Of a stretch of 64,000 nucleotides of DNA, positions 287 through 57,947 are shown piece after piece; positions within the stretch are counted from its first letter, which is position 1, and every line of letters begins with the position of its first letter. Source of the DNA: Scenedesmus sp. ARA3 (lineage: Eukaryota > Chlorophyta > Chlorophyceae > Sphaeropleales > Scenedesmaceae); contig RWJK01000256.1 of NCBI GenBank assembly GCA_004335835.1, forward strand, positions 84,661 to 148,660, in the 5' to 3' direction. The notes beneath the pieces were generated by a model. It ran no database searches and was not told the origin of the DNA. It saw nothing but the letters and a program-made list of their open reading frames with translations. The position numbers were made by a program, and so were the translations under genes.

Positions 287-3200
287 AGACTGGAGGTGAG
301 TTGTCTGGCCTGCATTGTGAGTTGTGCCTGCAGCGCTGCTGTGCATGCTGGCGTGGTGTGCGCTGCTGCTGGTGGCTCCGCTGCCGCTGCTGCTGAAGAT
401 GTCGGGCAGCAGCGGAGGCAGCTGCAGCCCTAGCTGCTGCAGCTGCTGCTCATAAGCCTCCAGGTGCGGCCTACAGCACACAACATAAACATAACATAAG
501 ATGACAAACTTAAAAGCAGCGCAGCTATAGGGAATAGGGAAAGTCAAATAGGGAAAGTCGAATAGGGAAAGTCGGTGCAATATAGCGACGGAACATTATT
601 CCTGTTTGCTGTCGCTAACCAGTCCCTAAGTGATCCCTATACTGCGTTTAGGGACGGCTTAGGGACCATTTAGGGACAGGTTAGGGAAGCCAGTCTTAGT
701 GCAGTGCTACGTAAGCACTATTGCGAGGCTTGCAGAAACCAAGAGCATGTGCACAGTAAACGCATTGCCAGTACTGTCACATTACTGCTGTTGTTGAAAG
801 TCAGCGCCGGCTGCTGCCAGCACCAGCACAAGGCGCCCGGCAAACACCTGGACGAAGCGCACTCGTATCAACGCAAAAGACCACCCGGCTGCCTGCAGCA
901 GCTGCCAATACGGCCACGACTCCATGTGTCACACCCACCTGCCCCTTCCTTCTGCAACCCCGCACAACACACAAGCAAAGCACATGCCACACATCACGCA
1001 CAACATTGGACTCTATCCTACAAGACTAGTATTCTCAGATTCCCACCCACCTGAGCAGTGGATCCTGCAGCAGAATGTCACACTCATGCAAAACATTGGA
1101 CTGTATCCTCACTCTGCAGATTGGCAACCCACCTGAGCAGTGGATCCTGCAGCAGCTCCAAGCTGCTAGGCCTGCAGCAAGGGTCTTTTTGCATCAGCCT
1201 CTGATGCAAACCTCTTAGCCCAGCACTATACATGCCCGGCAGCTGCGGCGCCCTCGCCCGCCGGATCAATCGATAAATCACCGCGATGCGATCGGCGCTG
1301 AAAGCAGGTCGCAGCGCTGCCATTTGATACAACACGCAGCCGAGCGCCCAAATGTCGGCTTTTTGATTGTAGCCGGTTCCGCCGAGCTGCTCCGGGGCGA
1401 GGATGTTTGGTGTACCCACAAAGGATTGGGCCACGGCACTGCTGCGCTGGTGCTGCGCAGCGATGAAGGAGCCTGCGCCGCCGCTGCTGCTGCCGAAGAG
1501 TGAGGCGCCTGTGGCGCTGCCCGTCATGCTGTGTCCTGCATCCAGCACCTGTACAGGTGGGGCAGAGGTGATGGGAGCGGATGTTGAAATCAGCGCGCCA
1601 GTGTCAGTGTTGTGCTGCATATGCCGCTGGGTTTTACGACCGTTAGGACGCTAGCTGTGCAGCACTTTGCGCTCAGGCTGAGCTGGGCAGCAACGGCTGC
1701 TACATGTTCTTGTCATAGCTCCTGCTGCAGTGAATACAACAGACCTCACCGGCACATACTGCATGCTGTTACTATGGTGCTGGCTGCTGTCTTGTGCTGG
1801 CTGGTGCTGCATGACACCAGCTGCTGCACACACATGTTGCACGAGCGCTTCAAAAGGAGTGATGCTTCAAAAGTTGCTGCAGCAAGCCTGCACCAACTGC
1901 AGCGCACCTTGACCAGGCCAAAGTCCCCCAGCTTCAGCAATCCCTGGCTCGTCATGAAGATGTTATTTGCTTTCAAATCCCGGTGCATCAGGCCCCGCGA
2001 GTGGATGTACGCCAGCGCCGCAACCAGCTGCACAAAGTAGCGCAGCAGCAGCGGCTCCGGCAGATGCCTGCCTGCCTGGCCGGCCTGCTGCAGCCTGCTG
2101 TGCAGGTCACCGCTGTCTGCAAACTCCATCACAATGTTGAGTCTCGCGCCATCAGCAAAGCAGTCGTGATATCTGCATGAGAGGCATAGGAAAGATGGTG
2201 TTATGCAGCACACTGAGAGGCTGGTTGGTTGTACAGTGGGAGCTGCCTATGCAGCGAAGGGAGATGCAGCTGCTGCTGCGCCAGCCATGCAATGCGGCAG
2301 ACGCCGGCGGCTGCAGGAGCTGCCAGCAGCATCCTCCAGCATACTGAGCCGGTAGCGGTTCCACCAGGCAGCTGTAATTACAGGTGGGCACTGCTGCAGC
2401 TCAACCACAGCCGATCATACAATGCATTTCAACCAACCAATACAGCCGATTGTAATCGCAGCGCCTCACTGAATGATGTTGGGGTGCTGCAGGCTGGCCA
2501 GCACTGCCACCTCTCGCTTCTGCTGCTCCAGGATGGACCCCGCCTGCCCCACAGCAGCAGCAGCAGCAGGCGCCTCCAGCGCCTTGATGCACACCAGCTG
2601 GCCGGTGGGCAGGTGCTGCGCCTTGTGCACGCAGCCGAATGCGCCGCGCCCCAACTCCTCAAGCATGCGATACTCACCCTGCACAGTGCACAGGACGTAG
2701 CACAGCATGAAGGTTGCTGCCCCAAGTTTTGCAACTGCGCAGAACTTGCAGCAGCAGCAGTGACAGCTGTACTACCTCCAGCACGCTGTTCTTGCCCGTG
2801 GAGTCAAGCTCGCAGTTTTCAGCCAGACTGCTTGGGACTATAAGTGTGACTGCTGCTCATGCATGGCGATGCAGCTGGCTGGGCTGGTGATGCACGTGCA
2901 AATTGAAAGCAGCGCTGCTGGCAACAAACAGCAGAACGCACAGGCTGCAACTTGCATTGAATGCTGGCCGCAGCCGCACCTGCAGCGTCACTGCCGGCTT
3001 GACTGCTGGTGTCTGCATGGGGAACAGCCGCCGCAGCGACTGCAGCTGCTTGCGTGAGAAGTCGGGAGTGGCCTGCGCCCGGCTGCTGCCAGCAGCAGCA
3101 GCAGCAGCAGCAGCAGGCGCTGTGGCTGCCTGCACTCCTGGCAGCTGCTTGTGGGCAGCCTCCTGGCAGCAGCATTACACCACCAGGGTTGCCCAGTCAG

Positions 3201-3708
3201 TTGCTGTGATGAGTTGCGAGCAGCAGCTTGAGGCTAAGATACTACATGGCAGGCCACCGCAAGCACTGCATGATTGCGGGCACGGCACAATTGCCTGGAC
3301 CGTGCTGTGCTGCGTTACTTCTGCAACATCCTGCAAACAGCACTGCTGGCAGCAGGTTAAACTGCACTTGACACCTGCGCTGATGGGGATGCTGCAGCAG
3401 CTGCAGGGGCCCCGGCATCCTACATTAAACTTGCGCCCAACCCTTAGCACTGCCCTGCACCGGACCCTCGGCACTCCCTGCTGGCAGCAGCCTCACCTGC
3501 GCTGATAGGGATACTGCTGCTACTACAGGGGCTCCCGCACCCTACGATGTCAATTGCACCCTAACCCTCAGCACTACACTGCAGCAGCCTCACCTGCGCT
3601 GATGCAGCTGCAGGCGGCACCGCGCCCTCAATATGCACCACAAGATCTGTGCCATGCGGCGCCGCTGCTGACTCAGCACTCTCTCCACACATCAGCGCCT
3701 TGATCTGT

Positions 3709-3753
<45 letters not shown>

Positions 3754-3817
3754 TCTTGTTCTAGGGCAGCATTCTTGGCCAGCAGTGCAGCTAGCTCAGG
3801 GTCGTGTGCCGCCTCTG
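1..3817 (-). CDS. NEK-like Ser/Thr protein kinase (3' end beyond window; 5' end not resolved)
   Basis: Exons read on the minus strand: 3594-3817, 2980-3144, 2470-2678, 1908-2172, 1133-1548 and 1-470, joined in consistent phase. The kinase domain starts in 2470-2678 with EYRMLEELGRGAFGCVHKA (glycine loop) and CIKAL (VAIK-type lysine). The catalytic loop HRDLKANNIF and DFGLVK are in 1908-2172; GTPNILAPEQ and the lobe carrying ADIWALGCVLYQMAAL are in 1133-1548. HRDLK-x-NIF with GTPxxxAPE is typical of NIMA-related (NEK) kinases, which act in cilia and the cell cycle. About 40 low-complexity residues separate DFG from GTP, longer than usual. The last exon runs open to the window edge as an Ala/Ser/Gly-rich tail. 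The two upstream exons (poly-Gln, then Ala-rich) join in frame but have no recognisable domain, so their membership is inferred. No initiator Met was found. Kinase identity is firm; the NEK subfamily is likely. Confidence 0.8.
471..1132 (-). other. Intron of the NEK-like kinase gene with short AGGGA-type tandem repeats
   Basis: This is the intron between kinase exons 1133-1548 (donor GTGGGT) and 1-470 (acceptor CTGTAG). At 528-590 a 13-bp unit (aatagggaaagtc) is repeated three times, followed at 646-690 by a variant run of ttagggac units. At 995-1075 lies an approximately 85-bp copy of the donor boundary (see the repeat entry). I see no coding sequence here. Confidence 0.6.
1036..1162 (-). 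repeat. Exon-edge echo: kinase exon donor boundary duplicated into the intron
   Basis: The end of the kinase exon with its donor (1124-1162 on the plus strand, containing cacctgagcagtggatcctg) is repeated at 1040-1078. The upstream stretch 'acattggactSTATCCT' is also shared (about 1002-1018 and 1091-1107), so the unit is about 85 bp in tandem. The copy lies downstream of the true donor in transcription direction. Confidence 0.8.
3366..3610 (-). repeat. Exon-edge echoes of the kinase 5' exon donor (two copies)
   Basis: The donor of exon 3594-3817 (plus strand cctcacctgcgctgatg, 3589-3605) recurs at about 3493-3530 as cctcacctgcgctgatagg and at about 3370-3410 as cacctgcgctgatgggg. Each copy is followed by a similar GCAG-rich stretch and then a run of four or five purines. 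Both copies fall in the following intron. Confidence 0.65.
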
Positions 3818-4758: not shown

Positions 4759-7700
4759 TCACAGCAGCTGCAAGCCCGCAGCTGCAACAGCAGACATGCC
4801 TCGCAGCTCAGCCACCACCTTGTGCCGCTCATAGTACACGCCACAATCCAGAGAGCCACACACCACGCCACCATGCCTCACATTCCAGCCACCCCCTCCG
4901 CCACAGCTCTGGCACAGCCTCACAAGATGCTGATGCTGCCGCTCTAGTCTTGCTGCTCTAGCTGCAAGCACCACAGCAGTCGACTGTGGATTTGCCCTGC
5001 ACCTCTCGCACAGCGGCTCTGCAGCACGCGTCAGCTCATCACAGACAGCACAATGCCTCGAGAGGTAGTACGCATCAATCGTGGCGCTGCTGCCTGGAGC
5101 AGCAGCAGCACCATGACCTGGCATCATGCTGCTGCTCAGCCCTGCTGCCCTGCTGCTGCTTGGACCAGCTGCTGCTGCTGCCGGTTCAAACCCAGCCAGC
5201 GCAGCAGCCATGCTAAAGCCAGCTCCTGCTGCTTCACCCGCCTGTCCTGCCGCTGCTGCTGCTGCACCTGCTGCTGCCGCTGCCCCGCCTGCCAGGCCAG
5301 CAGCAGTGGGCAGTCCTAGCGCGTGTGTGGGTCGCTTCTGTGGCAGCAGCCGCGTGGGCTTGCGCATGTGTGCAAACCAGGAGCGCACATCAGCGCCCAC
5401 CAGCGACAGCACACGCTCCAGCGCAGGAATGAGCTGCAGACGGTGCAATGTATGTAAGCGTACAAGCACAGTTAGGAGCAATACATACAAGAATATAAGC
5501 ACAATTGGCGCCCACCAGCGACAGCACGCGCTCTAGCGCAGGAGTAATCTGCAGACGGTGCATTGCAGATGCAGGCCAAAAAGTGCGGCACATAAGCACA
5601 GGTGGTGATGCGGTTCATAACTGCCGTCAGACGGTGCCACACACTCAACCGGAGCCTGTATGACAGGCCGACAGTGAATGAAGCCAAGAGCGCAAATTGC
5701 TTCGAAAGGATGCTTCCCAACGGCAGGTTGGCGTTGCTGCTGCTAGGGCTCATCTGGTGATGAAACAACACTGTTGGCAGCTACTTGTGCAGCACACTTG
5801 CAAGAAACGACAGAAAAAAACCCAAACAGCTGCAGCAGCAGCCAGCCCACCTGCTTTGTGATGTAGTAGTTGCCGTGCAGGCGCAGCGCCGCCCTGCTGC
5901 TGTCCTGCTGCACCAGCGCCTGGGGAGGCACCACCAGATCAATCAGCCTGCTGCCAGGCGCGCCTGCCACCACCTGCAGCACCAGCAATGCACCCACAAC
6001 CTCTGCTCAGCACGCAGGGCACGCGCTCGCCGTCGCGGGCTCAACATATGGTCTGAGACCAGCAATTGAGAAGAGAGACACCACAGAACAACAGCGCTGC
6101 TAGCAGATACACAATGAAAGTGTTGCTCACCACGTATGTGCACCCTAAACATGCTGATGCTATGACGATTAAGCGGGTCAGGCCTTTTTTGCGGTCTGGG
6201 GCGCCTACACGTGGTGTTGAGTTGATGATGCGTGTGCGTTTGGGTTGTTTGGCTGTACATGAAACGCACCAGCCGTTATGGTGGCAGGCGAGCTGATGGT
6301 AATGCAGCATGTCCGGCGTGTGGTGCAGGTGTGGAGTCATTGTCACATTTGCTTTTCAAACAGCGTTTGATTGTGCTGCGACGTCTGTGCAAAGAGATGA
6401 GATGTTCATTGAGATTAGGGCTTTGTCTGGTTGCGCTGCAAAATTGCGTAACTTGTTGTCTATTACAGATGCTGAGGTGAAGGTGAAGCGGTTTGTGTCG
6501 GATGATGCTTGGGGTTCTGTTAGGTTACTGGTGTCTAGGTTCATTCCTGATTTTCTTGAACAGGCTTGGGGTGTGCGTAATGCTTGCAAACATGATGGTG
6601 TAGTGCTCCCTTCTGTTGCCGCTCCATTGGGGCGCGGGGGCGATGGCGTTGATGCTATGGCTTGATGAGTAACATGATGATGATGCTCACAACGTAGCGC
6701 CCGCTCCACGCGTGCGTCTGCCGCCATACCACAGAGATGCATACTCAAAACACAGCAACACAATAATAAGATATCACCTCTTCCCTGCACGGCTGTCATC
6801 TCACCACGTATGGCACGCGCTCGCCGTAGCGCGGCTCTGCCCTAGGGTCTGCTGCCATGGCCTTGGCCGCCACGATGGCAGCAGGCGGCAGGCTGGACGC
6901 GGTCGGCGCATAGCTGCCCAGCCGCACCTCCTTGCAAAACACAAAGTCCTGCGGTTGGATCCAAAAAGACATGAAGCTGTGTCAATGTGTCAGTAATGTT
7001 GACGGCTGCTGGGGGAAGGGTGGAGGCGCTGGGGCGTAGCTGCCCAGCCGCACCTCCTTGCAAAACACAAAGTCCTGCGGTTTGAATCCACACGCTGCAG
7101 CAAAAATCCTGTTTCGGATGTGTCTAAAATGTTGACGGCGCTGGGGGCAGGCTGTAGAGCATAAATCCATACCTGCCCAGCCGTACCTCCTTGCAGAACA
7201 CAAGTACTTGTGGACTAGTCCTGCAAGCAGTTTGGTGCACCGTTGCGCTTGATTCAATGATCAGTTCATGGTTACATGCGAACTGTCAGCCGTGCCATAC
7301 ACACTCGGCCCTTGTAGATTCGTTGACAGTGGTCGTGAACGGTCCATACCTGCACTGACACCCTGTTGCTGAGGATCTTGGCCCACTGGCGCGTGCAGTA
7401 GCCCTTGACCGCGGACAGGTCGCGGCTGGTGAACAGCTCACGCAGGCACGCCTCCAGCATCTTGGACACAGCAGGGCAGCCGTCACGCCTGCGCAGTCAA
7501 AGACGAATCCGCAATGACTGCTCTTCAGCAACACCAGCACAGGACATCAGCAGGCAATCGATCATGGCAAACACTGAGACTGGGAGAAGTTCACGTTGAC
7601 AGAAACAGGACATAAGTTCACCTCGGCAGCAGCAGCTGCAGCAGCCACAGCGTCACCTGACTGTCTCGATGCCCTTAGCGTCAAACACCGGCACCGCCTG

Positions 7701-8308: not shown

Positions 8309-11300
8309 TTACTTATACTGCATGGCGAGTGGCTGCTAAAGCTTGGCAGGGAAGGAGCAGCAGTCAGCCTGGCCTGCAACAGCATGTGCGGCAGCTGACG
8401 TACACTTGTGGAAAGCGCAATGTGACGGACCGCAAAGCACAGTGCCACTCATCCGACGTAACAAACCCGTTCCAACAGCCCCAGCCGCACGACAAACCCA
8501 GCTTCAGCCCACACGAACGATCACGATGGCGTCATCCATCAGCCAGCCGGCACAACAAGCACAGCACCGCATATATGCGCAACCATACACGCCACACGCA
8601 AGGCTACAGTTCACAGCCGCCGCACATGCACCGCCACGATGGCGTCGACTGGCAACCGGTTGCACACCAGGCACAGCACCGCACACACAACGACAAACAA
8701 CATCCCAGAGCAAAGTGTGCAGGCCCCCACGCACCGCCACGATAGCATCTGCAAGCTCCGCAAGTGGCATGCGGCCTGAGAAGGAGGCGGAGGTGTAGCC
8801 GTAGCTCACGTTGGCGATCATCTTCAGCCCAAACTGGCGCGCGTTGAGGCAGCGCTGCAGCACCTGCACCGGCAGCAGCGCAGGACAGGCAAAGCCATTG
8901 GCAAGTTGGCAGGGCGGCAACAGCCCCGGCGGCGCTGGAACTTGTTGGCAGGCTTATGTCCTGCATCAGGTGTAAGCTGACGCGGTCCCCGACCATAGTC
9001 AAAACAACAGCAACAAACCGTAGTCAACCCCACCTTGTCGGCTTTGCAGCGCTTCATGGCCGCTTTGACCATCACCCGCGTGGCAAGGATCTCATGCAGC
9101 AGCCGCGGCAGCACGCCCGGCCGCACCCCCGGCGGCAGAAACGCCACGCCATTCGGCGCTATGATCAAACCTTCTGGGTCCGCTGCTGCTCCCGGCAGCA
9201 ACGCATCTGCTGGAGGCGCATAGCTGCTCACTCCTAGCCTCACACCGGTCCCTGCTGGATGCTGCTGCTGCGCAGCATGTGGCAATCCCTCCCCTGCACC
9301 ACCGCCGCTGCTCATCTGCGATGCATTTGGTGTGAGGTCTGCAGCCGCATTTGCAGCTGCCACGCGTGCGGCGGCGGCTGCGGCGGCTGCAGCAGCAGCA
9401 GCAGCAGCAGCAGCGTGCGCCGGGCGGCCCACGCATGTCGAGTAGCAGAGGTTGTAGGCGATGACTAGGGAGGGGTAGAGGCTCTGGAAGTCGAGCACCA
9501 CCACTGGGTGGACGTACAGCCGGCTTTCTGGCTCCATGACTAAGGGGAGGGCCTCAGTGGCGGGCTGCGAGCCCACCTGCAGGAAACACACATGTGATGT
9601 TTTTAGTCATCTTCATCACGAGTATGTCTGTACGAACACAACAAGGCATTGGAAGGGTGGTCCAGCACCACCACTGGGTGGACGTACAGCCGGCTCTCTG
9701 GCTCCATTACTAGGGGCAGCGCCTCTGTGGCGGGCTGCGAGCCCACCTGCGGGAAGATGTGACAAGGTATCATTGATTAGGATTTAGCATCTTGGTTTCA
9801 AAAGGCATAAATGGCAGATGCAGCAGAAGCACGGGACGCATACCCGCGAGTTCAATGGTCTCCCAGCTGAGCCGCACCTGCTCCTTGCTGGGTGAAAGCG
9901 CCAGGTAGTTCTGGCTGTGAGCCAGCCGCAGCAGCATGCTCTCCACACGGTACTGGCTGCCCCTGCACGCCAGCAGCAGCAGCAGCAGCAGCAGTATCAG
10001 CAGCAAAAAATGCAGCGCAATGAGCACCACGCAGCCAGCTGGCTTGAGCACAACAGGGACCATGCACTGTATCACAAAGCTGAACAGTAGACCCAACTGC
10101 GCACGTTTTTCTTTGGGTGTGCAGCGCTCGCTGGTTGGAGCTAGAAAACACCTAGAACTAGACCTGTCCAGTAGTTCTGCACTTGCTCGTTTCAAAGTCC
10201 TAGGTTGCACCCACCACCACCGCACATCCACTTCTCCTGATTGGCAGCCGTCCTGGCCCCTTATGCCACAGCACCTGCTCAGTATACTGAAGAAGCCCAT
10301 AGGTGCGCACCAGCACTCCAACACATTGTATGCTTACATGCAATCAGCAGCCGCACCTGTTGAGCACGCTGAAGAAGTCAATGCCGAAGGTGCGTGCCAG
10401 CTCAGCGGTGCGCCCGGGCAGGTCCAGCGCCTCAAGCAGCTCCAGCACCAGCGCCGCACGAGCAGCAACACGAGACAGGCAGCGCCAACGGCCGCCTGCA
10501 CAGCAGCAGCAGCAGCAGATGATGACAAAAGCATATAAGGCATGCCATGGCAGACATCAGGCATCCAGCAGCTGCAGCACCAGCGCGGCGCGCGCAGCAA
10601 CACGAGACCGGCAGCGCCAGCGGCCACCTGCGGCACAACAGAAAGGCATGCAGCGCAAGACGCCAGATACCAGGCGATCAGTGAATCCAGCACCAGCCTG
10701 GCTCGCGCAGCAACATGAGATGGCCAGCGCCAGCGGCCGCCTGCAAACATGCAGCAGCGGCTTAGGCAATATTTGCGTAAGGCATGCGGTGCGGCCGGGC
10801 AGCTCCAGCGCCTCCAGCAGATCTAGCACCAGCCCGGCCCGCGCAGCAACGCGAGACAGGCAGTGCCAACGGCCACCTGCGGCACAACAGAAAGGCATGA
10901 AGCGCAAGACGCCAGATACCAGGCGATCAGTGAATCAAGCGCCAGCCCCGCACGCGCAGCCGCACGAGACAGGCAGCGCCAGCGGCCACCTGCGCAGCAG
11001 CAGTAGATAATGATGAAAAAAACATATAAGGCATGCTATGGCAGACATCGGGCCTCAAGCAGCTGCAGCACCAGCGCGGCCCGCGCAGCGACACGAGACA
11101 GGCAGCGCCAGCGGCCACCTGCAGCATACAAGGCATGCAGCACAAAGTGGCGTGAATCAGCTCCAGCACCAGGCCCCCCCGCGCGGCAACACGAGACAGG
11201 CAGCACCAGCAGCCGCCTGTGCAGCAGCAGCAGCAGCAGCAGCAGCTGAATCAAGGTTCGCAAGAGGCATGTATTGCAGGCATCAGGCCTCAAGCAGCTG

Positions 11301-14300
11301 CAGCACCAGCGCGGCACGACCAGCAACACACATGATTGAAGCATATCAAGCTGTTTGCGAGCCCCGCTGTCGCGGCCGCACCTGCATGGCCCCCGTTGAA
11401 CCAGCCGGCCATGGTTGCCTGTCCCACGGCCGGCACGCGCCGCCGCAGCACCGCCGCCACGCAGCCCTCCAGGCTGTAGTGCTGCAGCTTCAGCTCGCCC
11501 GCCATCAGCCTGCAAAAGTAAACAAATCAGCAGGCAGTGCAGCTGTGAGTGTGTGATACAGCTACAGCGGTGACGCTTTCAAGCATGGTGTAGTGCTGCA
11601 GCTTCAGCTCGCCAGCCATCAGCCTGCAACACCAGCAAACAGCGCAAGGCGCAAACAACAAACGGGTGATGCAGGCAGTGCATGTGTGATGCAGCTAGGG
11701 CTCAGTGACACCTTGCAAGGCCTACCAGGAAGTGCACAAGGCCCCCTCAGCTGCTGCTGCTGCTGCCGCTGCTGCTGCTGCTGCTGCTGCGTCGTCTCAC
11801 CTCCATGCGTTGAGCATGATGCGCCCTGTGGCGTGCAGGCCGCTGCTGGTGGCCCTGCCCCAGGCATCATCACTGCCCTCACGCAGGCCTGGCAGCTGCA
11901 GGCAATGCAGCAACATATAAGGATACATGCGGCGTGTTGGTAGCTGCCAAAACATGGGTCAAAGAGCATTGACTGCCCAAGGCGTCACTGCTGCCCTCAT
12001 GCAGGCCGGGCAGCTGCAAACAACACGGCACAACAGCAAGACACGCATGATGTGCTCCTAGTTGACACAACATGGGTCGTGAAGCATCAGCTGCGGCGTC
12101 ATCACTGCCCTCACGCAGGCGAGGCAGCTGCAGGCAGCAATGCAGGAGTACAACAAGGTGCATTGGTATGCAGGGTGCGGTGCCCATAGCATAGGTAACA
12201 AAGCGCCAGCTGTGGAAGCATTTCCCACTGAAGTGCAACTTGCGCATGGTGGGGCAGGGGCTCACATGTATAAGCTGCCTCCAGGCGGGCTGTTCTCCAC
12301 CCACAACATCTTACAACTTAAATACAACCCTTGTCTGGCGGCTGCCGGCCTGTTTTGTTGCGCCCCCTCACCTCTGGTGTACGTGACGCCGCCCTCAGCA
12401 GGTTGAAGCCCATCTGTGCTCCCCTGTCAGCCAGGTACCCCAGGCTGGCCTGCTGCAGGTCCCAGCCCACCAGGGCATCAGGGTCTAGGGTTTGAATGAT
12501 GGCACAAAACCCCTGCAGCAGCGCCTGCTCGCTGGCGTAGTAGTGCAGCTGCACTGGCGCCAGCCGCTGCTGCTGCTGGTCTTGTTGGGAGTGTGCCGCC
12601 CCTGCTGCTGCTGCTGGGGGCAGCATATGTGGGATGGATCCGTTCAGGCTGAGTGTTCTCAACAGGCCGTCCCAATCTCTGTCAGGTGGGCAGCTGGCAA
12701 CAGGAGCATCAATGATTGGCAGTGAAGGCAGCTTCAGCAGCTGCCGCGCAGCAGCGCTGGCTGCTGCTTCGGTGTCTGCTGCGCCTGTGCGCGTGAGCGA
12801 TGGTGCTGCTGCCACTGCTGCGTTTGTGGTGAGGGTCGGGCGGCCTGCTGCTGCTGCAGGCGGTGCTGCTGCTGCTGCTGCTGCTGTAGCGGCAGCTGTG
12901 GCGGCGGCTGTAGCTGCTGCTGCTACTGCTGCTGGATGCTTGTCGTCCCAAATGAGGTACCTAACTACCTTGCTGCTGCTGCTGCTCTTGCTGCTGTTGC
13001 TGCCGGGTGGTGGCGGTGTTATCATGACCAATGCCACCACCCGCACAGAATCGTACCTGCATGGACGGGGCAGTAACATGTCACACGCGGTAGACATCAA
13101 ATTTGCAAGTTGGCCAGGCAGGTACACAGCACGGCTGGTATCATTCATACTGCCATCTGACAGCTCACTAGCACCCAGGCAACCCAGTTGACACTGGCAC
13201 AAGACGGTATCAGAGTAACAATAAACAATGAAAGCTCACCCACAGCAGTGTTGTCACTAACAAAGTAACAATTGTCATAACAAATCACCTGGGATCAGGC
13301 AGCAGACTGCCCCTGGAGTCTGCATGCACCTCCACAGCCACAATGCTCAGCTCAGGCCGCTGAACCGCCTCGGGCCCTAAACCTCCCTGAACCCTGCGCT
13401 TGAACCCCAGCTGACTGGGCGGGGTTCTGCCGGCTGCGGTTTTGCCGCCTGGGGTTTTGCCGTCGGCTGAACCGCCTGGTGCTGCTGGCGGTGTGATGTG
13501 TTCGCTGGGGCCTGGGAGGCGCAGTGATGCTGCTGTAGCAGTACCTACAGCAGGGCTCGGCGGGGCAGCAGCAGCACCTAAGGCCTGCCGGCCTGCTGCA
13601 TCTGCTGCTGCTGCTGGCGCTAGTGGTGTGTCAGCTGCTAGGGTGTCGTCTGCTGCACCTTGCGCTGCCGCGGCCGCTGCTGCTGCTGCTGCTGCCGCAT
13701 CCGCAGGTGTGAGTGCCGGTGTGGCTTGCTGCACTGCTGCCCGCCTGCGCCTCCTGCTGCTGCTGCCGCCAGGCCTGCCAGCTGTACTGAAGAAAAAGCT
13801 GCGCTCATCATACTTGGGCGACGCAGGCGCCTCATAATCATCATCTTCATCTTCGCCATCACCCAGCTCAGACTCTGATCTGCTAGGCGCTGCCTCACCT
13901 GCTGCTGTTACTGCAGTTGGGCCGCCGCCTGCCTTATCACTACTGCCACCTGCTGCTGCTGCTGCTGCTGCTGCTGGTGTTGCTTTTCCCTCGTCGGCGG
14001 CTTGCTGGGAGGGCAGCGACAGCAGCAGATTTGGGGTGGCCAGCAATGCCAGGTCACCATCAGCATCAGCCTCTCTGGCAGCAGCAGCAGCAGCAGCAGT
14101 GCGGCCAGCTGCGCCGATAGGTGTAGCAGCAGCCAGCGCTGCTAATCCGCCGACAGCTGAGCCCGCTAACCTGCTGCCAGCTGCTTTTGCAGCAGCAGGC
14201 ATCACAGGAATGAGCCTTCCTGTGTTTGCATGCATCACAAAGTCAGGACCACTGGCACCATGCTTGCTGCTTGTCGCTGCTGCTGCTGCTGCTGCCCCCG

Positions 14301-15785
14301 CTGCCTCACCTCCCGCTGCTACTGCTGCCGCTGCCCTGCCGTAGGGTTTGACTATACCCTTGCCCCAAACTCTGCTGACCCCTCGCCTTGAACCCTGCTT
14401 TGCTGACTCAGCAGCCAGCCAGGTTTCTGTCTGAGCCCTAGACGGGGGTTTAACCGGCAGCCGCAGCAGCAGCACACCCCGGTAGCGCTGCGGCAGTGCA
14501 GCAGCCGCTTGCAATGCGCTGTCAAGCTGCTGCTGCAGTGTGGAGAGCCGCTGCTGCTTCAGGAGCTGCTGTGAAGGTGTCAGCCCCTGTTCTGCGACGC
14601 CAATGCCGGCTAACTGCTGCTGCTGCTGCTGCTGCTGCTTGCCCTGCTGCCGCATCACTGCACGCAGCCTGGCCAGGGCACTGCTGCCTGCACCAGCGGC
14701 AGCACCAGCCGCTGCTGCTGCTGCTGCTGAGTTGGTGGCTGCATCTGCAGTGATGTGTGCCGTGAACTCAGGCACATCGGCAGCAGAAGGAATCCTACAC
14801 AGGCAGCACAGTCAGCAGGCAGTACACGCAGCAGGCGGTAAGGAGGACGCAGCACAGCACGATCAGCAGGCAGCACAGTTCGCAGGCACAACACCCACCC
14901 ACACCTTTGCCAACAGCCTGCTAGAAGCTCCCGCCCAGCAAACACAGCAGGCTCACCACCCAAACCCGCCCACACAGCCCACCACAGCCCACACAGCCCA
15001 CCACAGCCCACCGCAGCCCACCGCAGCCCACCACAGCCCACACAGCCCACCACAGCTCACCGCAGCCCACCGCAGCCCACCACAGCCCACACANNNNNNN
15101 NNNNNNNNNNNNNNNNNNNNNNNNNNNNNNNNCACAGCCCACCACAGCCCACCACAGCCCAGCACAGCCCACCACAGCCCACCACAGCCCACCACAGCCC
15201 ACCTGAACTCCCGCCCAGCAAACACTGCGTGCTGGCCAGGCTTGTCGCCAGCCAGCCCCCAGTGCGGCTCACCCACTTCATCCACACCCACAACATCACC
15301 AACACCCCCCCACTCACCCGGCACACCCCGCACACTTAATACTGCTCACCTGAATTCCCTGCCGGCAAACACGGCGTGCTGGCCAGGCTTATCACCAGCC
15401 AGCCCCCAATGCGGCTCCTTATGAGCCACAGGCAGCAGCCCATGGCCCAGCGCCATGCCCTCAGCAGCAGCAGCGGGATGCGGCGGGCGCAGCAGCGGCC
15501 GCAGCAGCACCAAGCCCCTGCCGGCAGTGCCACCGGCAAGGTCAGTTAGGCGTGCTGGGCTGCGGCCAGCAGCAGCAGCAGCAGTGGCGGCAGTGATTGG
15601 TGAGCGCTGCTGCTGCTGCTGCTGCGCCTGCTGGGGGGTAACCCATGAGGCAGGGGTGCTGCCACCCTGCTGCTGCTGCTGCTGGCGGCTGTTGTCACTA
15701 GCAGCTGGGTTGTCATGGTTGTCTACCTCCATTGCACCGTCAGCAGATAACTGCTGCTGCTGCTGCAGTGGTGCTTGGTTGACTA

Positions 15786-36303: not shown

Positions 36304-36343
<40 letters not shown>

Positions 36344-36371
36344 GAAGGAGCAGGCTGCTGCCACAGCTTGA
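34095..36371 (+). CDS. Adenylate kinase, plant plastid type, five exons
   Basis: Exons: 34095-34367, 34637-34690, 35020-35090, 35379-35658, 36165-36371. They total 885 nt, giving 294 aa. The enzyme interconverts ATP + AMP and 2 ADP. The P-loop region is VFLGPPGVGKGTYASRVA, the AMP-site HIAAGDLVRAEI, then GFILDGFPRT. The lid is GRRICGHCGKNYNIADIY, followed by PPLSPPKECEPHLETREDDT and EDFYRASGLLLDFEITGGIP. The 'CGRRxCxxCGxNYN ... MPPLxPP ... R-x-DDTEEVV' layout matches the chloroplast adenylate kinases of plants. The first about 45 residues (Arg/Ser/Ala-rich, few acids) look like an organelle transit peptide; plastid versus mitochondrion is not decided. The C-terminus ends in a Ser run and EKEQAAATA. 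The last exon's end is repeated downstream. Confidence 0.92.
35846..35930 (+). repeat. Exon-edge echo of adenylate kinase exon 4 donor
   Basis: Exon 4 ends DDTEEVVLRRLQ|gtggga (35620-35660). About 225 bp downstream a copy reads GDTKVVLPRLQ, with the donor changed to 'ctgggt'. A further region shared with the intron follows ('cggcttgaggtggg / cgggcgggaagttggg'). Confidence 0.65.
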
Positions 36372-36562
36372 TGGCAGCAGCAGCTGATGGCCTGCCCGCA
36401 GCCCTACATCGGCAGCAGCAGCAGCAGCAGCAGCGGGAGGGAGCAGGCTGCTGCCACAGCTTGATGGCAGCAGCAGCTGATGGCCTGCCCGCAGCCCTAC
36501 GTCGGCAGCAGCAGCAGCAGCAGCGGGAGGGAGCAGGCTGCTGCCACAGCTTGAAGGGCGGC
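36366..36562 (+). repeat. Two tandem copies of the adenylate kinase terminal coding segment including its stop
   Basis: The end of exon 5, from 'tgatggccagcctgcagcccta' through the AGC run to 'caggctgctgccacagcttga' (36268-36371), is repeated at about 36372-36464 and 36465-36553. Each copy retains the stop-containing word gccacagcttga and an AGC run of six or seven units. They lie in the 3' UTR. Confidence 0.9.
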
Positions 36563-39346: not shown

Positions 39347-41123
39347 TATATCTGGTGAGACAAAAGCAGGGGACTGTGTGGAAGTATGCAAAAGAGATTG
39401 ACAGGGCAAACACCGCGTCAGGGGCTCACTGCAAGTGCTGCTGGTGCTCGCAATATGAGGGGCAGTGAATAAAGCGCTGTTGCCGGCAGACTGCTGCAAC
39501 ATGTCGCAGGTAGCGATACAAGGCGTGGAGGCACATGCAACCCCCCTCCAACACAAGCACGAACCCTACACCTGCCCACTACAGGGCACATGTGCCAGCA
39601 GCTGCAAGCACGCGCCGGCAGCTTGAAGTGCTGTTCAGGTTTCAGCAGTAGCTAGCCAACACGCTTTGGAAAACGCCCCACCTCATCAACGCGTGCCAGC
39701 ACAGCTTGTTGGCCCTGCAGCAGCCACACCAAATCACCAGCAGCCACCTCGCGCGCATGCTTGAGGCACTGCTGCTGCTGTCCCACACCACAGGCAGTCG
39801 GCACGTAGTGCATGGGTGACAGTGTCAGCGCCTTGCTGCTGCCTGCCGCCCCAACAGGCGAGGCACGAATGTTCAGGTAGGTTGCTGCTGCACCTGCGTC
39901 CCTGTGGGGTGTAAGATAGACACTGTCAAACACTGCCTTGCCTGTTGACACATCAACCGCCAGCACCTTGTCACCAACCGCCAGCTGCGCAACAGGCTTG
40001 GGTCCCGCAGGCGTAAAACACGCGCCACAGCAGGGAAGCATGTGCCGTCGTTGGGCAGAATCTGGAACGCTGTGTCTTTGCGGTTCAGCAGCGCCTTATT
40101 AACTGCGCAGGTGATGGTTACCGGCGTGCCAGAGTAGTTGCTGGCTGCTGGCTTGTTGTCCCTGTCGAATTGCCACTGGATGCTGGGCACGTCAAAGGGT
40201 GGGGCATCTGTGCAGTTCTGAGGTGATGTGGGGTCACCTGTGGGCACACATGTCTGGCCGTAGGTGTAGTTGAAGCCAGTTTTGCCGTACAGCATGTATG
40301 TGCAGCGGACCTTGTCCTTGATGCTGGTGAGGTTTGCAGGAAGCCGGTAGACTGCGCCGACATCGTCGAGGGTTTTTGAAGGCGAGTAGGCATATTTGAG
40401 GAGGTTGGTGATCTGGGCTGGCTTGTAAGCGGTGTGCGCCTTTGTGAACTTGCAGGTGAAGCCGTTGGCAGTGACGGCGGACGCAAGAGGCGACACTGCA
40501 ATGATGGCACCTGCAGCAGGAGGCAACAAACGCACGGTTGCATTAGTATCAGTTTGATGATGCACGCGGGAGGGGTTAGACGCATGTACAGCCAATGAAA
40601 GAGCTAGCGAAACAGGTTTGAGGCGCCACGTTGTATGCAACAGAAAGCTGACCGCCATGGACCGCATAGATGCTAACAAATGCGCACGGCAGCGGCAGCA
40701 TGCACCTGTGCAGCACGCATGTGTATGTGGTGCAGGATGCTGGGTCAAACAAAGTGCCCTCTGATATGCAGTGAGTGCCGGCTGCATTTACTGGCACTCA
40801 CCAGGCTGGTAGCGCTCAGTAGGTGTGCCAGGCGGGGCTGTTGGATCCTGCTCTATTGCCTGGGTGATTATACTCATCAGGAAGCAGCCCATGCCTGGCA
40901 CAAAGCCCACTGTGTAGAAGTCCAAGCTGTCTTTCACAGGGCTGGGACCAGCAGCCTGTGCAATGCCCACAGCACCAGCCACTCTGCCAATGGCCTCTTT
41001 CTTGACCTCCTGTGCCACACAGCTGGCCACCTTGCTGTAGAAGCTGCCCTGGGCAGCAGCAGCAGCAGCAGCAGCGGCAGAGGCTGCCGCGAGCGCCACG
41101 AGCAGTAGGCCACTGGACCTCAT
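38953..41123 (-). CDS. Secreted protein with C-terminal Hint (hedgehog/intein) domain; one-base frameshift
   Basis: Exons: 40802-41123, 39682-40510, 38953-39303. The N-terminus [20 protein letters not shown] is a signal peptide. A Cys-containing extracellular region follows (TCAVNKALLNRKDTAFQILP), then the Hint start GTCFP, where Cys is the expected self-processing nucleophile. Next come KPVAQLAVGDKVLAVDVSTG, LTLSPMHYVPT and the final Hint strand YSPWTLSGSIVVEGFAASTH. Hint domains cleave themselves from the upstream part, as in hedgehog proteins; green algae have secreted versions. Exon 2 is one base short of phase: GTCFPAVARV and the following FTPAGPKPVA are in different frames, across a run of four T's near 40010. 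This may be a sequencing error or a genuine loss. Upstream function is unknown. Confidence 0.8.
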
Positions 41124-42447: not shown

Positions 42448-45400
42448 ATGGAATACCCTGCTGGAGCACCTGTCCCCCTGCAGCTTATATCAATAGATAG
42501 TGCAACCGGACGCGTGAGCTGCGGAGAAGAGGCACTAGCCTGCTTGCGGTCCATAAAGACCCCAATAGGGGTGGTTTCTGTCTGTGGCAGGGCCAGGACA
42601 GGCAAAAGCTACATCCTTAACCAGCTGCTGGGCCAGAGCACAGGCTTCCAGCTTGCTCACAGCCACAGGCCATGCACCAAGGGCCTGTGGATATGGTCAA
42701 AGCCCTTCAGACGCGTGGGGCCGGACGGCAATGAGTACCATCTGGTGGGCTGCAGCAGCAGACGTGTGCACATGACGCTGTTGTAACAGCAGCAGTTGCA
42801 GCAGATGGGACCAGCAGGGCAGGATCAGCAAGTTTACCACAGCAGGGTGAATAAGGTTCAAACTCAAACAGCAGTTGCAGACAGCGCGATTTGCTGCTCG
42901 CAGTACATAGCGCATCTGTGCGTACACCGAGCACTGATGAAGTTGATAAACACCAACAGCTGGTGCACATCAGGTGGCGCAGTGCAGCAGCAGCCATGAC
43001 AAACAGCACTTGGTGTCATGTGGCGGCGCGCGGCAGTTGGGCAGCCTGGCGTACTATGCAGCAGCAGCGCTGACACTCACGTTCATGCTGCTTCGCCTGA
43101 CCACAGCCATTTGCGTGTACTGCCTGTCGTAGGTATTGCTGGATTCCGAGGGGATTGATGCCTATGACCAGGTGGGATGCAGTCTGCAGCCGTGGAACCG
43201 CAGTAGTGGAACAGCAGCAGCAGCCACCACGGGAGCAGCAATGCGGCAAGCGTCTACAGGGCATAGTACGATGCAGTGAAGCTGCAACAGCGCCGGGTTG
43301 CTGCTAGTAGTTGTATGGTATCTGCGATCCCAGACAGCAGTTGCTGCGTAAAATCAATCATCAACTGGTAGCTTACGCTGCTGCTGCTGATGCTGCTGAT
43401 GCTGCTGCAGAGGGCCCAGGATGGCGTGCAGCTGCTGTCACTGGCTGTGCTGCTGTCCAGCATGTTTGTGTTCAATCAAATGGGGCCCATAGATGAGGCA
43501 GCACTGGACAGGCTCAGCCTGGTGACGCAGATCACAAAGCACATACGCGTGAGGGCAGGCGGAGCAGCAGCAGGTGAGATTGCGCTATGGCAGTAGGCTG
43601 GCGCAGCAGCAGCACCACCGCCACATGCACACTGCTGCAATGCTGCGTGCAAAACAACTGCAGTGCTCGTGACTGCAGGCAGCAGAACAGCAGCAGGCAG
43701 TTATGTGTGCAGCACTGTAGTAGTTGGCAGGCAGCCTCACCAGCGCACTTGCATGCTGCAGCTGGACTCCACTCAGCATGCCGTGATGTGCTCTGCATGG
43801 TTTGTGTTATTCTGCCGCTGCTGCTGCAGAGGATGCCAGTGAGCTATCCACATTCACGCCCTCCTTCCTGTGGCTGCTGAGAGACTTCTACCTGGACCTG
43901 GAGGACGAGGGGCGCAAGGTGCGCAGCAGCGGCAGCAGCAGCAGCTCCTACGATGCCAACAGATTACATACGCAGCAGCGGCAGCAGCAGCAGCTCTGTT
44001 GCAGCAAACCACATGCGCAGCTGGAGTTACAAAACAATAAGCTCGAGTTGCTCGTGTCATCAAGCCTGCAGGATGCCAGCAGCTGCGAGTGGTGCAAGAC
44101 CACCCATGCGTCTGGTCGTGTACAAGTGCCGTTGATGTGTTGGAGGCTGTTGCTGCTGCTGCTGCTGCTGCTGCAGGTGTCGCCGCGGGAGTACCTGGAG
44201 ACAGCACTGTCACCATCAGCAGGAGCAGGCGCAGCAGTAGAGGCAAAGAACCAGGTGAGGCTGGTGCAGACGGCAGAACTGTCTGTTGCTGTGTCAGCTG
44301 CGCCTGAACTCAGCCATAACAGCCAGGCCAAGCCCAGCATAACTTAATGCAACGACGGTTCTTGAGCTACGAGGTGTGCTTTGTTGCTTGCTCACTAGCC
44401 ACTTCTGCAGTAATCCCACTCGTCAAAGCCCAATCTGCATCATCACAGTGCTGCTGCTGTTGCCTTCTGTTGCTTTGCACCCCGCCTCACTCGCCGCCAG
44501 ATCCGCGGCTCCATCAAGGCGCTGTTCCCCGACCGCGACTGCTTCACGCTGGTGCGCCCCATGCACGACGAGCGCGCCCTCAACCGGCTCAACACGCTGC
44601 AGCAGGAGCAGCTGCGGCCAGAGTTCCAGGAGGTGCGGATGCACAGCCTGCAGCTAGCAGCAGCAGGGGGCTGCTGTGGTGTTTAGCACAGTGCTGCAGC
44701 TGCTGTAGACAGTTGTAGCGCCAGTCACAGATGATGCAGACAGGAGCAGCAGCTGCGGCCAGAGTTCCAGGAGGTGCGTGGGCAGCATGTGAGGTGCAGC
44801 CGCGCCAGCCTGCGGCGCTTTGGGCAGTGCTGCAGCTGCTGCAGACGGTTGTAGCGCCGGTCACAGATGATGCAGACAGCAGCAGCTGCGGCCGGAGTTC
44901 CAGGAGGTGGGCGGGCAGCATGCGGGTGCAGCAGCAGGGGCTGCTGTGGTGCTTTCAACAGTGGTGCAGCAGGAGCAGCTGCGGGCAGAGTTCCAGGAGG
45001 TGCAGGTTCCACTTGAGGTGCAAGCGCTCGCCCGCGCCGTTTAGGGCAGCGCTGAGTGGGCACAGTCTGGAGGTAGCAGCAGCAGGAGGCTGCCGTGCGT
45101 TGGGCAGTGCTGCAGCTGCTGTGGACGTATGTAGCGCCAGCCGCAGATGTTGCAGACAGTTGATATATAGGTGTAGCCGTTGCTCTGCTGACAGCTTTGA
45201 GCGCTGATTGCTTGCAGCTGACAGCAACTCGCTGTGTTCATGCATGTGTGCTCTCTTTCTGGCTGCAGGGCGTGTCCAAGCTAACGCGGCTGCTGCTGGC
45301 GCGCGCGCAGCCGAAGCGCATCGGTTTTGTGCCTGTCTCAGGCGTGATGCTGGCTGGGCTGGCTGAGGCGTACTCAGCGGCGATAAACGAGGGCGCTGTG

Positions 45401-49180: not shown

Positions 49181-52021
49181 TTTGCCGGAGGTGCTCGCTT
49201 CATGCAGACGTTTGGCATGGCAACTCAGATACAGCAGCCCAACGCATCATCAGATGCAACCCAGCCCTGGGACGGCATCATGGTGAGTCTGTGCAATGCA
49301 AAACTTGCTGCTTGGTGCCTGTAGTAACGGCTGCACTTGGACCTGCACTTCCCAGCACGCTCTCAGTGCAGCTCCTGGGCAGCCCATTCGTGTGCTACAC
49401 CGTCAGGTCACATCTAGCCGCAGACAACTCTCTGGCCTACAGCAGCCCGCCTTGTCAGATCAGATGGTGCCACGTCATGACCAGCAGCTAGCATGGCCCA
49501 TCCCTCGCACTACAACTATCTACTGCGCTGCTTGTGTATCACCTGTGTCAACCTGCCCCGCAGGGCATGGCCCTGCCTGCGCTGGCAGCAGGCAGTGTGC
49601 AGCTGCCTGTGCTGTCCATGCTGCAGCAGGGGTTGATTGACGCGCCCGTGTTTGGGCTGTACACAGTGCCCGATGCATCGGCAGCTGGGGCGGGCGGGGA
49701 GCTTACGATTGGCGGCTGGGCAGCAGACAGAGTGCAGGGGAACTTGACGTGGTGAGGAGCAGCTTAATGATGTCATTTTGAGTATTTACATTTCTTTTGC
49801 TACCGTTGATGGTGTGTTGAGGCCTCACAAGGGTGGCCTGACACATGCTTCCTCCATACATAACGCAGAGCTGTGCACCCTGCAGGATCGATGTAGTAAA
49901 GCCGGCCGCCCCCACCCTCAACGGCTACTGGGCAGTGCCTATTCAGGCAATACAGCTGGACTGGCCGAGTGGCAGCGGCAGCAGCAGCGGCAGTGGCGCG
50001 GCAGCAGGCAGGAGCAGTGTGCCTGCTGGCGCGTGCAGCAGCAGCGTGGACTGTGTGGGTCTACTAGACAGCGGCACGGCGCTGATCTACGGCTCCATTG
50101 AGCAGGTGAGATGTGAGGCAAAGTGGTGGTGTGCTGGGCGCAATGCGGTGTGCTTGTGCAAGCATTAAGATGCAGCAGCAGTGTGGCATGTGTGGGTCTA
50201 CTGGTGAGTAGCACAACGCTGATCTATGGCTCGATGGAGCAGGTGCGCTGTGGTGCAAGCAGGAACTCATTTTGCGCTGGTCGGAATGTGTTATGCTGTT
50301 GCTTGCTGTTTAATTGAAGGTGTTTGCAGCTTGCAGGCAGTGTGTTGTACCACTAGATGCGTGCTGTGCAGCAGCAGATGGTAGGTGGCCTGGCTCCAAG
50401 CTGCACTGCAAGTGCTAGGTGCTGCAAGTACAGGCAGTGTGGAGCTCAACTGACGTTTCCTGCACCACACAGTGAGACAGCAGCTCTGTCATCAAAATGG
50501 GTGCCCTCACATTTTGGCATGCCAGCTGTGCTTGAACTGCATGTAACACGCGGCGCTTGCTGCTCGTGTTTGGCAGGTAGCAGCAGTTAACGCTGCTCTG
50601 GGAGGCTCCCCCTCGCTGCAGCAGCTGCCCTTCAGCTGCAGCGAGGTGGTGGCAGAGGTGCTGGCAGCCACTGCTGCTGCGCTCAGCAGCACCACACCAG
50701 AGGAGGCAGCGAATGCGGTGCGTGTTTGGTGGGGCGCTGAGATGCATGTGCAGCTGCTGCGCTGCTGATGCATGTAACAGTATGACTGTCGTCAAAAACA
50801 TTGTGCCGTTCAGCACATCATGCACGACTGTTGGTCGACTGGCACAGGTGCGTTGTGATAGCTGAGACATCCCAACTCGCAAGTAACTGCAAGCTTACAT
50901 GCACATTCCAATGCAGCGGAACGCTGCTACTCCAAACACACAAGTCTAGCCCTGCCCAAACCATTCTTTCATCTCTGCTTGCCGCTGCTGTGTGCAGGTG
51001 TGCAGTGACCTGTATGGCGATGACGCGTCATCGCTGCAAGCCACGCTGTGCAGCGCTGTGCAGCTGCAGCTGGCAGCGCTGTCACTGGGCCCGCCCACAC
51101 AGGCCACACTCAGCCAGGCCCAGCAGCAGGTATGATGGTTGCAGGCACGAGTAGCAACTGTAGTTAGTGATACTTGCAGGAACAAGTTAGGCCTATCAGG
51201 GTTTGTGCCTGTAACATTCAAAGGCTGCAGCAGCCAACAGCAAACATACTGAGGCAGGCAGGCCTGCACGGCTATGTCACTGTGGTTTGAGAGCGTGCGC
51301 TCAGATCCCCGCCAAGCCTTACATGTTGCTGCTGCTGTCGTGCTGCTGCAGGGTGTCGCGCTGTGTGAGCAGCTGCCGTACACAGTCAACGCGAGCCTCA
51401 GCTGCGGGCAGGTGCAGGAGCTGCCAGGCATCAGCTTCAGGCTGGGGGGCCGCAACTTCAGCATACAGCCGGCAGCCTATGCGTACCAGGTGAGCTGTTG
51501 GATATGTGTTGCAACAGCAGGTCGCGGTGTGTTTTGTATGCTGCGCATGCTGCGTCACAGCACTGCTGCAGGCTGGTTACAAAAAGAAGCCTAGTACCCA
51601 ACAGCACTTATGCCGTAAGTGGGGTGCGCGTGCTTCCCTGCACCTGCGCTGCTCCATTTGCAACTGGCATATGGCATGTGCTTTTTTTCCCTACGACCCC
51701 ACTCAGCCCAAACCCCGGCACCAAATAGCCCGAGTGAGGTTTTTTTGTTGTTGTGACCAGGGGGGGGCGGAATCCTACTGGCTCGCCACACACAGCACAA
51801 TTGAGCAAACCCAATGGCATGTGCTCCTTGACCGTTAGCCCTGCTGATCCACACAACACAACCTCCACTGCCGCCTGCTGCTTGCACCTGCATGACATGC
51901 GCAGAGCCCCAAAGACCTGAAATGTTACAGTGGCCTTATTGCCATGGGCAGCCTTCCTGCAGGCACATGGCTGCTGGGCGATGCTTTCCTGCGGAACTAC
52001 TACACTGTTTATGACTATGGC

Positions 52022-56208: not shown

Positions 56209-56252
<44 letters not shown>

Positions 56253-56352: not shown

Positions 56353-56387
<35 letters not shown>

Positions 56388-56638: not shown

Positions 56639-56672
<34 letters not shown>

Positions 56673-56745
56673 TCATGATGATGCAGCTCAACGACCCAGC
56701 ATACGGTATGAACCTGGCGCCTGCTGCTACACCCAGCAGCCACCT

Positions 56746-56776
<31 letters not shown>

Positions 56777-57947
56777 CTGGCACAGCTACAGCAGCAGACG
56801 CCACGAGCAGCACCATCTCATCAAGAAGCCGCAGCCGCTGCCGCAGCCGCTGCCGCCACTGCTGCTGGCGATGGCCCCTTCATTTCACTGTCTGAGCTGG
56901 CGGGCACGCCCCAGGAGGGGCTGTATGCGGTCAGCAAGGCGCGTGCTGAGGCTGCAGTGCCGCTGGAGGCTGGCGAGCCTGACAGCAAGAGGTGCGGCAG
57001 CAGCACTGCATGGCCAGTGCTGAATTTGCGTGTGTACACGTGCCCAGCATAATGGTCTAAGTGTACAGCGCATCAAACTGTCACTGCGGCCCAAGCCATC
57101 GTTCAATTCAGCACTCGACACGTGCCCATCATGACATTGCTGACATGAAACTTGGCATGAAGGTGGAATAGCGTCCCTTGCATGCCATGCCTCTCTCTCC
57201 CCTCTGCTGCAGCCAGCGGGGGCCGCACTGCCACTCACCGCACTGTCAACCCAACTGAAGCATACTATTTCGCCTGTCTTGCTGTGCGCTGCCCCGCAGG
57301 GACCGTGCCGCCCCTGCGCGGCGTGCCCTGGCTCAGAAGGTCGCCAAGACCAACCTCACTGCCTGCGTGCCTGCTGGCGTGTCATGTTTGCAGGGACCGT
57401 GCTGCCACTGCATGCCGCCTGCAGAGCTGCCAACCGATGCACTCGATACCAAGCTGACGTAGCCTTCATCTGCCTCTCTGCTGGCCTGCTGTACGTTGCC
57501 GTGCTGTGCTGCTTCATTTGTTTTTTGCCCCGCAGGGACCGCGCCGCCACTGCGCGCCGTGCGCTTGCTCAGAAGGGCGCCAAGCCCACCTCAGCGTACA
57601 GGGGCGTGACGCACCACGTGCGCACGGGCCGCTGGGAGGCACACATCTGGCTGGACGGCAAGCAGGTGGGTGGGTGTGTGGGGGGGGGGGCTGCTGCTGC
57701 TGCTGCTGCTGCTGCTCATTATGCGGCAGTATGCATGGCCTGAGGTTGGGGGAGGGCCTGTCGATGGTTTATGTGCCTGTCTGTTTGCCTGTTTGTGATA
57801 GCTGTGGGCAGTATTTGTGGGCTCGGCTAGCCAGCGCGCTGGAGGTTGCTTTGAATTATGCTTGAAGTGTACCTGCCATTGACGTTTGTTGCAGTGCCTT
57901 GTTACAATCCCGCACGATGCCATGTCTAACTGAAATCAGTTGTCCTT

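Follow-up and report, generated by a model that had tools for sequence, protein, structure and literature searches.

Tandem duplication within genes, including duplication across intron-exon boundaries, is established in those passages of the intron-gain literature that deal with it (PMC4974935, PMC3443670, PMC2891723), and the creation of introns by tandem genomic duplication is traced there to Rogers (1989) and to Gao and Lynch (2009), as cited in PMC4974935 and PMC3443670. It has been argued that duplications spanning a junction supply raw material for new introns and splice sites; proven recent cases, according to the relevant part of PMC4974935, are few. Here we analyzed a stretch of 64,000 nucleotides of the green alga Scenedesmus sp. 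ARA3 (contig RWJK01000256.1, positions 84,661 to 148,660 of the forward strand; hereafter the window), in which 14-87 coding bases together with the adjoining donor or acceptor are copied into the neighbouring intron. Such copies, which we term echoes, occur in REV3 (at several exons), eIF2A and GBP, in a kinase region and an adenylate-kinase region, and at other loci. The reading that we favour, with some reserve, is that short tandem duplication of an ordinary kind, seemingly dense here, produced them, and that the copies then exchanged sequence with the functional exon edge.

The closest known kind of event is the internal tandem duplication of gene segments. As in the AGGT/tandem-duplication model of intron gain, in the form in which the sources outline it, the duplication is intragenic and includes splice sites, and the protein can stay unchanged; in that model a piece of exon carrying AGGT turns into a new intron, whereas here an old intron gains spare exon edges. 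The potato RdRp intron (PMC4974935) is similar in that the duplicated unit spans an existing intron-exon boundary, but what that account describes is one case and a new intron, whereas the 147 kb scanned here contain 30 edge echoes, with the copy remaining in the old intron. In the novel introns of Drosophila, as PMC2891723 presents them, exonic sequence was also tandemly duplicated and one copy intronised; those are single events at novel intron positions, whereas arrays of edge copies lie within introns here. The portions of the intron-gain accounts that bear on the question (PMC4974935, PMC3443670) make no mention of the Scenedesmus density and narrow unit size, and no report of exon-edge copies inside introns as a genome-wide pattern was found among the literature matches listed. 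As far as these partial sources allow comparison, the density, the narrow unit size, the arrays of edge copies within old introns and the coding-like divergence set the present case apart. A genome with such a density would be a natural laboratory for the duplication, silencing and recycling of splice sites, and would let one ask why an intronic copy evolves like coding sequence. Minisatellite arrays under concerted evolution are also head-to-tail, with higher-order periods and patchy identity. The echoes share these traits, but their units include functional splice edges and their exon-derived parts decay slowly.

The sequence scanned amounted to 146.9 kb, that is, the window plus 82.9 kb of stretches sampled by position, 30 kb of which lie directly upstream of the window on the same contig (labelled C159 among the 1567 contigs of the 87.27-Mb assembly). 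The window has a GC content of 0.58 and abundant CAG/CTG runs, and the named homologues of its proteins are mostly green-algal (Astrephomene, Haematococcus, Trebouxia, Helicosporidium), with land plants and others lower down. Exons were predicted with a hidden Markov model (HMM) built in this analysis, with a set minimum intron length and without RNA evidence, and only those of at least 60 bp were used (241 exons, 39.7 of the 146.9 kb); echoes wrongly called as exons are still a source of error. Repeat pairs with more than 35% of CAG/CTG-type sequence were dropped (40% for the self-comparison of the window, 50% for the inspection of core identity), and the list of exon-edge echoes was limited to offsets of 50-400 bp.

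Forty-four clusters of local direct repeats were found, with offsets mostly of 95-150 bp. Upon comparison of the window with itself, 46 of the 48 non-simple pairs less than 4 kb apart were direct, and 8 pairs lay farther apart; in all the sequence scanned, 70 pairs within 400 bp were direct and 1 was inverted. But for this one, the pairs within 400 bp are direct, as expected of local tandem duplication, whose copies should be adjacent and neither inverted nor dispersed. A first-pass annotation of the window had proposed that exon-edge echoes exist in unrelated genes on both strands, with a usual spacing of about 100-140 bp. All of this was borne out: pairs were present in 7 of the 11 sequences scanned, on several contigs (none in L002, L005, L010 and L017), REV3 and eIF2A lie on the minus strand, GBP and the adenylate-kinase region on the plus strand, and the commonest offsets are 100-150 bp, with a lesser maximum at about double this value (225-275 bp) and no offset under 64 bp in the list of pairs. 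Tandem Repeats Finder additionally reports arrays with periods of 3 to 49 bp. The one perfect head-to-tail young copy is a 187-bp tandem duplication in L003 (2255-2444 and 2442-2631, 100% identical, with a 3-bp overlap at the joint), which lies outside called exons; the other cores at 96-100% identity have diverged spacers. The L003 duplication (2255-2631) adjoins a GATCTGGTGCT-type repeat.

The repeats do not appear introner-like or transposable, as related copies at many unlinked sites were not seen in the assembly, which was searched with two genes only. The REV3 exon matched only its own locus and its echo, besides weaker polymerase matches, and the eIF2A region was matched elsewhere by pieces of 26-83 bases, which by our reading are of repeat type (40 of 60 candidates scored). 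An association with CAG/CTG runs was rejected, with 5 of the 44 clusters near a run against a random mean of 10.8.

To relate the clusters to gene structure, we compared them with random placements of the same spans (400 trials). An exon edge lay inside the copy in 30 clusters, 13 had no exon overlap, 1 overlapped an exon without including its edge, and none was exon-internal; the random means were 17.0, 19.5, 5.9 and 1.7, respectively. The 30 edge-containing clusters exceed the random maximum of 26, an enrichment of about 1.8-fold. Exon edges are enriched, not exclusively hit. With a different null, in which units of 140-100 bp are not subject to selection, 6.9-14.2 exon-internal copies would be expected per 30 edge echoes, and 0 were observed. 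Equal frequencies of exon-internal and junction copies, the outcome named beforehand as fatal to the idea of edge echoes, were not seen in the 146.9 kb. The accompanying claim that the junction is always the duplicated item goes too far, in view of the 13 clusters that touch no exon and the one that overlaps an exon without its edge. An edge-spanning duplication occurs about every 5 kb (30 clusters in 146.9 kb); to call this dense is a judgement rather than a comparison with another eukaryotic genome.

For 33 exon edges (14 acceptor, 19 donor) the echo was on the intron side, in agreement with the proposed rule that exon starts are copied upstream and exon ends downstream. Seven edges depart from it, and most of these are, by our reading, HMM exons called on an echo or array copy. 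The rule holds for any tolerated edge-spanning duplication, because only the copy joined to the exon stays functional. Three of the 33 edge echoes were dropped from the exon/intron rate, private-change, frame and indel counts (n = 30): 9669 (the second edge of the pair of 9576), 21083 (judged a false exon) and L008 1698 (the second edge of the pair of L008 1849). Edge 21287 was additionally dropped for the codon-position model, the substitution counts and the bootstrap (29 pairs).

Pfam or homologues back the kinase, REV3, GBP, Hint gene and eIF2A identities, and back the adenylate kinase weakly (ADK_lid below cut-off). Of the gene names first given to the echo loci, those of the kinase, REV3, eIF2A and GBP could thus be upheld, whereas Pfam gave 0 families for exons 25804-25959 and 49950-50105, taken for the DUF5765-like gene and the protease. 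We keep the label protease-like on account of a DSGT motif in the exon, which would be in keeping with such a gene. The loci of the window are the following:

984-1155, minus strand: kinase region, two donor-like exon-end copies, offset 91, none in a called exon of at least 60 bp; left flank homologous (p 0.002)
5393-5565, minus strand: REV3, exon start 5393-5433 plus acceptor (copy 5393-5450), echo 5508-5565, offset 115; zf-C4pol in the same open reading frame (ORF)
6874-7203, minus strand: REV3, acceptor and exon start with two echoes at a period of about 127-133
9490-9585, minus strand: REV3, functional exon start (exon 9300-9576) plus acceptor; DNA_pol_B in ORF 8827-9606
9660-9755, minus strand: REV3, echo of the acceptor plus 87 coding bases, 170 bp upstream of the functional start; 7 exon-part differences, with 7 of 7 changed codons synonymous
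10357-11329, minus strand: REV3, exon start (10357-10495) and array of acceptor/exon-start copies, higher-order period about 245; six complete copies ahead of the functional edge plus, by our reading, one partial, all in one intron
11475-11629, minus strand: REV3, exon start 11475-11515, echo 11589-11629, 40 of 41 identical
11855-12145, minus strand: REV3, exon start and two echoes
21008-21315, minus strand: exon end plus donor, period 134-135; identity over 100 bp, of which about 70 bp are intron going by HMM exon 21287-21526
25665-25866, minus strand: exon end 25789-25866, echo 25665-25742, echo donor GT changed to GA; exon-part differences at codon positions 1/2/3, 2/3/12
29516-29673, minus strand: eIF2A, exon end 29623-29673 plus donor, echo 29516-29566
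30975-31297, minus strand: eIF2A, exon start 30975-31042, echoes 31087-31145 and 31230-31297, all three in protein P0130
31375-31694, minus strand: eIF2A region, exon end with two echoes at a period of about 135
35636-35886, plus strand: adenylate-kinase region, exon end 35636-35658 and an echo of 28 bp, in which the donor GT has become CT
44598-45159, plus strand: GBP, exon end plus donor, repeated two or three times more at a period of about 136
50052-50258, plus strand: protease-like gene, exon end and echo, DSGT in the exon and VSST in the echo
57290-57593, plus strand: acceptor plus 58-59 coding bases, two copies, offset 236; AP2 label from the first-pass annotation only

If the junction alone were copied, the intron past the splice site should be unrelated between copies. 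Intron homology beyond the splice site was detected at p<0.05 in 17 of the 33 echoes (16 of 30 after dropping three), which indicates that the whole unit was duplicated in those cases; about half of the echoes would thus be ordinary duplications of a whole unit. Among 18 pairs hand-picked from the young and striking ones, 9 reached p<0.05 on at least one flank. Some of the youngest cores bear out the homology of the intron: in L016 a 59-bp core is 100% identical and the intron flanks are alike at 51 of 75 positions, and the flanks of the 11475/11589 core are alike at 48 of 71. An eIF2A core is identical at 52 of 53 positions, with undetectable flank homology. Neither of two tests found flank homology for 9490/9660, 29516/29623 or 25665/25789. 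The echoes without intron homology may be older, because two free introns would diverge faster than a free copy from a held exon. As far as shown by these comparisons, there is no support for the splice junction as a special target.

The eIF2A triple echo provided a view from outside the assembly. A single open frame spans all three copies (window 30737-31468, minus strand), at offsets of 105 and 150, both multiples of 3. A retained intron would be translatable at this locus, and frame is not kept across the whole echo set. A protein search with the eIF2A frame yielded P0130, from a separate, independently assembled contig of 1,033 bases (source code 'lgn'), which is identical at 178 of 181 residues and contains all three copies and the intron between them. 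The eIF2A echo is therefore not an artefact of this assembly, and the absence from independent assemblies that is expected of joined haplotypes was not what we found at this one locus; the first-pass annotation had named haplotype joining as the main artefact to exclude, and had listed features that speak against it. The relatives P0131 and P0132 match eIF2A at 88% and 84% over the aligned stretches; their frame shows no echo over the 40-odd residues that lie upstream, whereas in the window the inner echo is found 35 codons upstream. Judged from these proteins, the eIF2A echo probably belongs to this lineage alone, unless P0131 and P0132 have it in another frame. Two 14-residue stretches alike at 11 or more of 14 positions and at least 20 apart were found, among 148 proteins, only in P0130 and the window query, and no echoes were found in the predicted proteins of other relatives (148 proteins, protein level only). 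For neither the REV3 exon nor the eIF2A region did searches of the assembly turn up a second, allelic copy.

We propose that short units, mostly of about 95-150 bp, would be frequently duplicated in local tandem, and that in a gene-dense stretch such a unit would often span an exon edge. Duplications within exons would be purged by selection. An edge-spanning duplication would be tolerated, since the copy still attached to the remainder of the exon works and the extra edge sits in the intron; exon-start copies would therefore be forced upstream and exon-end copies downstream. Some pairs would then expand to arrays of up to eight, and the exon-derived part would stay visible longer, since one member of each pair is under selection. 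At some loci the exon part seems to have been refreshed by exchange between functional edge and copy, either by gene conversion or by contraction and re-expansion. Geometry, selection against exon-internal duplications and slower decay of exon copies may explain most of the pattern, with selection as the putative filter and exchange as the putative refresher. The REV3 arrays with a higher-order period speak for such duplication, and the identical L016 bases (59) and the 52/53 eIF2A core, set beside flanks that are 51/75 alike or without detectable homology, speak for exchange. Intron growth by tandem duplication had been among the candidate causes first listed, in agreement with this reading.

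The decay of the echoes was then analyzed. In 29 pairs the differences between exon and echo at codon positions 1, 2 and 3 numbered 22, 33 and 105 (30, 37 and 117 with nothing dropped). Pure third-position changes were synonymous in 82 cases and not in 8 (14.7 nonsynonymous expected at random), and third positions were asymmetric, with 49 changes of exon GC to echo AT and 25 of the opposite kind. In the 11 alignments that include both parts, positions 1 and 2 differed at 17 of 308 sites, position 3 at 24 of 153 and the intron at 320 of 1643. Indels point in the same direction, with 10 in 1413 exon-part columns and 49 in 1985 intron-part columns. Changes private to one echo were distributed 12/17/26 over 12 loci, an intermediate third-position share of 0.47 (for the REV3 array, 4/6/7), and the exon had few private changes (1/0/3). 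The private-change test is not clean, because the outermost echo also gathers exon changes that predate later duplications. The exon-derived parts of the echoes decay slower than the introns, as if still coding, a feature that the favoured reading does not explain. Pure coding constraint was rejected, as it fails for L016 and for the inner eIF2A echo: both show complete or almost complete identity beside intron flanks that are diverged or unrecognisable.

Several of these results weigh against duplication with exchange as we propose it. The third-position share was 0.656 (95% 0.594-0.712, bootstrap over pairs), against at most 0.455 if the echo were neutral, an expectation that uses the mutability measured on non-coding pairs; the excess has a P of 2.4e-7 with sites treated as independent. 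Neutral decay with base-specific mutability was thus rejected, as it fails to explain this excess. A neutral echo also predicts about half the intron rate, and positions 1 and 2 lie below that; together with the third-position excess, it follows that simple neutral decay does not fit. Exchange explains near-identity beside diverged introns, not the third-position excess; the latter would be accounted for by a period as coding sequence in a diverged allele, or by selection that acts indirectly, through recombination. Furthermore, 16 of the 33 echoes lack intron homology at p<0.05, the excess of edges over random placement was put down to presumed selection and presumably easier detection, and the 0 exon-internal clusters against 1.7 expected with the actual spans placed randomly are not significant (P 0.18).

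The edge excess (30 of 44 clusters against a random mean of 17) and the echoes without intron homology, 9490/9660, 29516/29623 and 25665/25789 among them, are what would be expected if repair, or a spliceosomal or RNA intermediate, copied the boundary into the intron and left the adjoining intron uncopied. Such a process, directed at exon-intron boundaries in general, had been proposed from the start, but it does not agree with the intron homology of 17 of 33 echoes, the 13 of 44 clusters without a called exon, the plain 187-bp duplication outside called exons, or the higher-order period of the REV3 array. In addition, 70 of the 71 pairs within 400 bp are direct, an orientation that the insertion of copied RNA would not require. 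We consider such targeting unlikely.

The third-position excess, together with some decay, could also be accounted for if unequal exchange between diverged homologues had put a formerly coding edge into the intron, part of the divergence having been gathered while both copies were coding. P0130, however, differs from the window at 3 of 181 residues even with the intron reading included, which makes that strain very close; in the assembly searches neither the REV3 exon nor the eIF2A region proved to have a second copy; and the eIF2A echoes share residues with their own exon, not with P0131 and P0132. Coding lineages of equal composition moreover predict symmetry, whereas third-position differences were 49 against 25. 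An origin in diverged alleles seems improbable to us.

It was also considered that echoes able to replace the functional edge, through contraction or conversion, would be under indirect purifying selection, harmful echo changes being removed at the rate of such replacement, so that intronic copies evolve like coding sequence. The third-position share of 0.656 is close to the 0.664 expected with both copies constrained at an omega of 0.2, indels are rarer in the exon part (10/1413 against 49/1985 columns), and the splice dinucleotide is intact in 26 of 29 echoes. The last figure, however, is about what modest neutral decay would leave, the codon positions of private echo changes in the REV3 array (4/6/7) are close to the neutral pattern, indels occur in the exon part of 8 of 30 echoes, and some echoes lost residues that we take to be conserved. 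The protease-like echo lost the DSGT motif, presumably a conserved one, and the echo of a NAP (Pfam) exon lost part of a stretch that we likewise assume to be conserved. The echo offsets modulo 3 (0/1/2) were 9/9/12 of 30; frame is therefore not kept, and there is no sign of echo translation. At the level of sequence no sign of echo use was seen. We are doubtful of indirect purifying selection in this form, and give little credence to the wider notion that recombination with the live edge keeps intronic edge copies coding-like, with selection acting at a distance on non-coding spares. If this were true, the spare edges would be a reservoir that both repairs and threatens the exon edge.

A tandem joining of divergent haplotypes or strains by the assembler, which the combination of conserved exon parts with diverged introns would resemble, and with which offsets of 100-150 bp, near common short-read lengths, would agree, is very improbable given the recurrence of the eIF2A triple echo in an independently assembled contig, the up to seven extra copies in one intron, the lack of exon-internal joins in 44 clusters, the existence of decayed echoes, the failure to find a second haplotype for the three pieces searched, and the small number of gaps (one each in the window and in L009, out of the window and 18 loci listed).

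The only gap of the window consists of 39 N at 15094-15132, inside a 10-bp tandem array (GCCCACCACA), and is followed by two similar coding-like copies at 15204-15268 and 15351-15415. A 93-bp tandem array lies beside a CAG run at 36266-36604, at the end of the adenylate-kinase region, and an array at 62172-62745 has mixed 64-bp and 127-bp periods and contains no called exon of at least 60 bp. A Hint module (PF01079) is present in a predicted gene at 39655-40095 on the minus strand.

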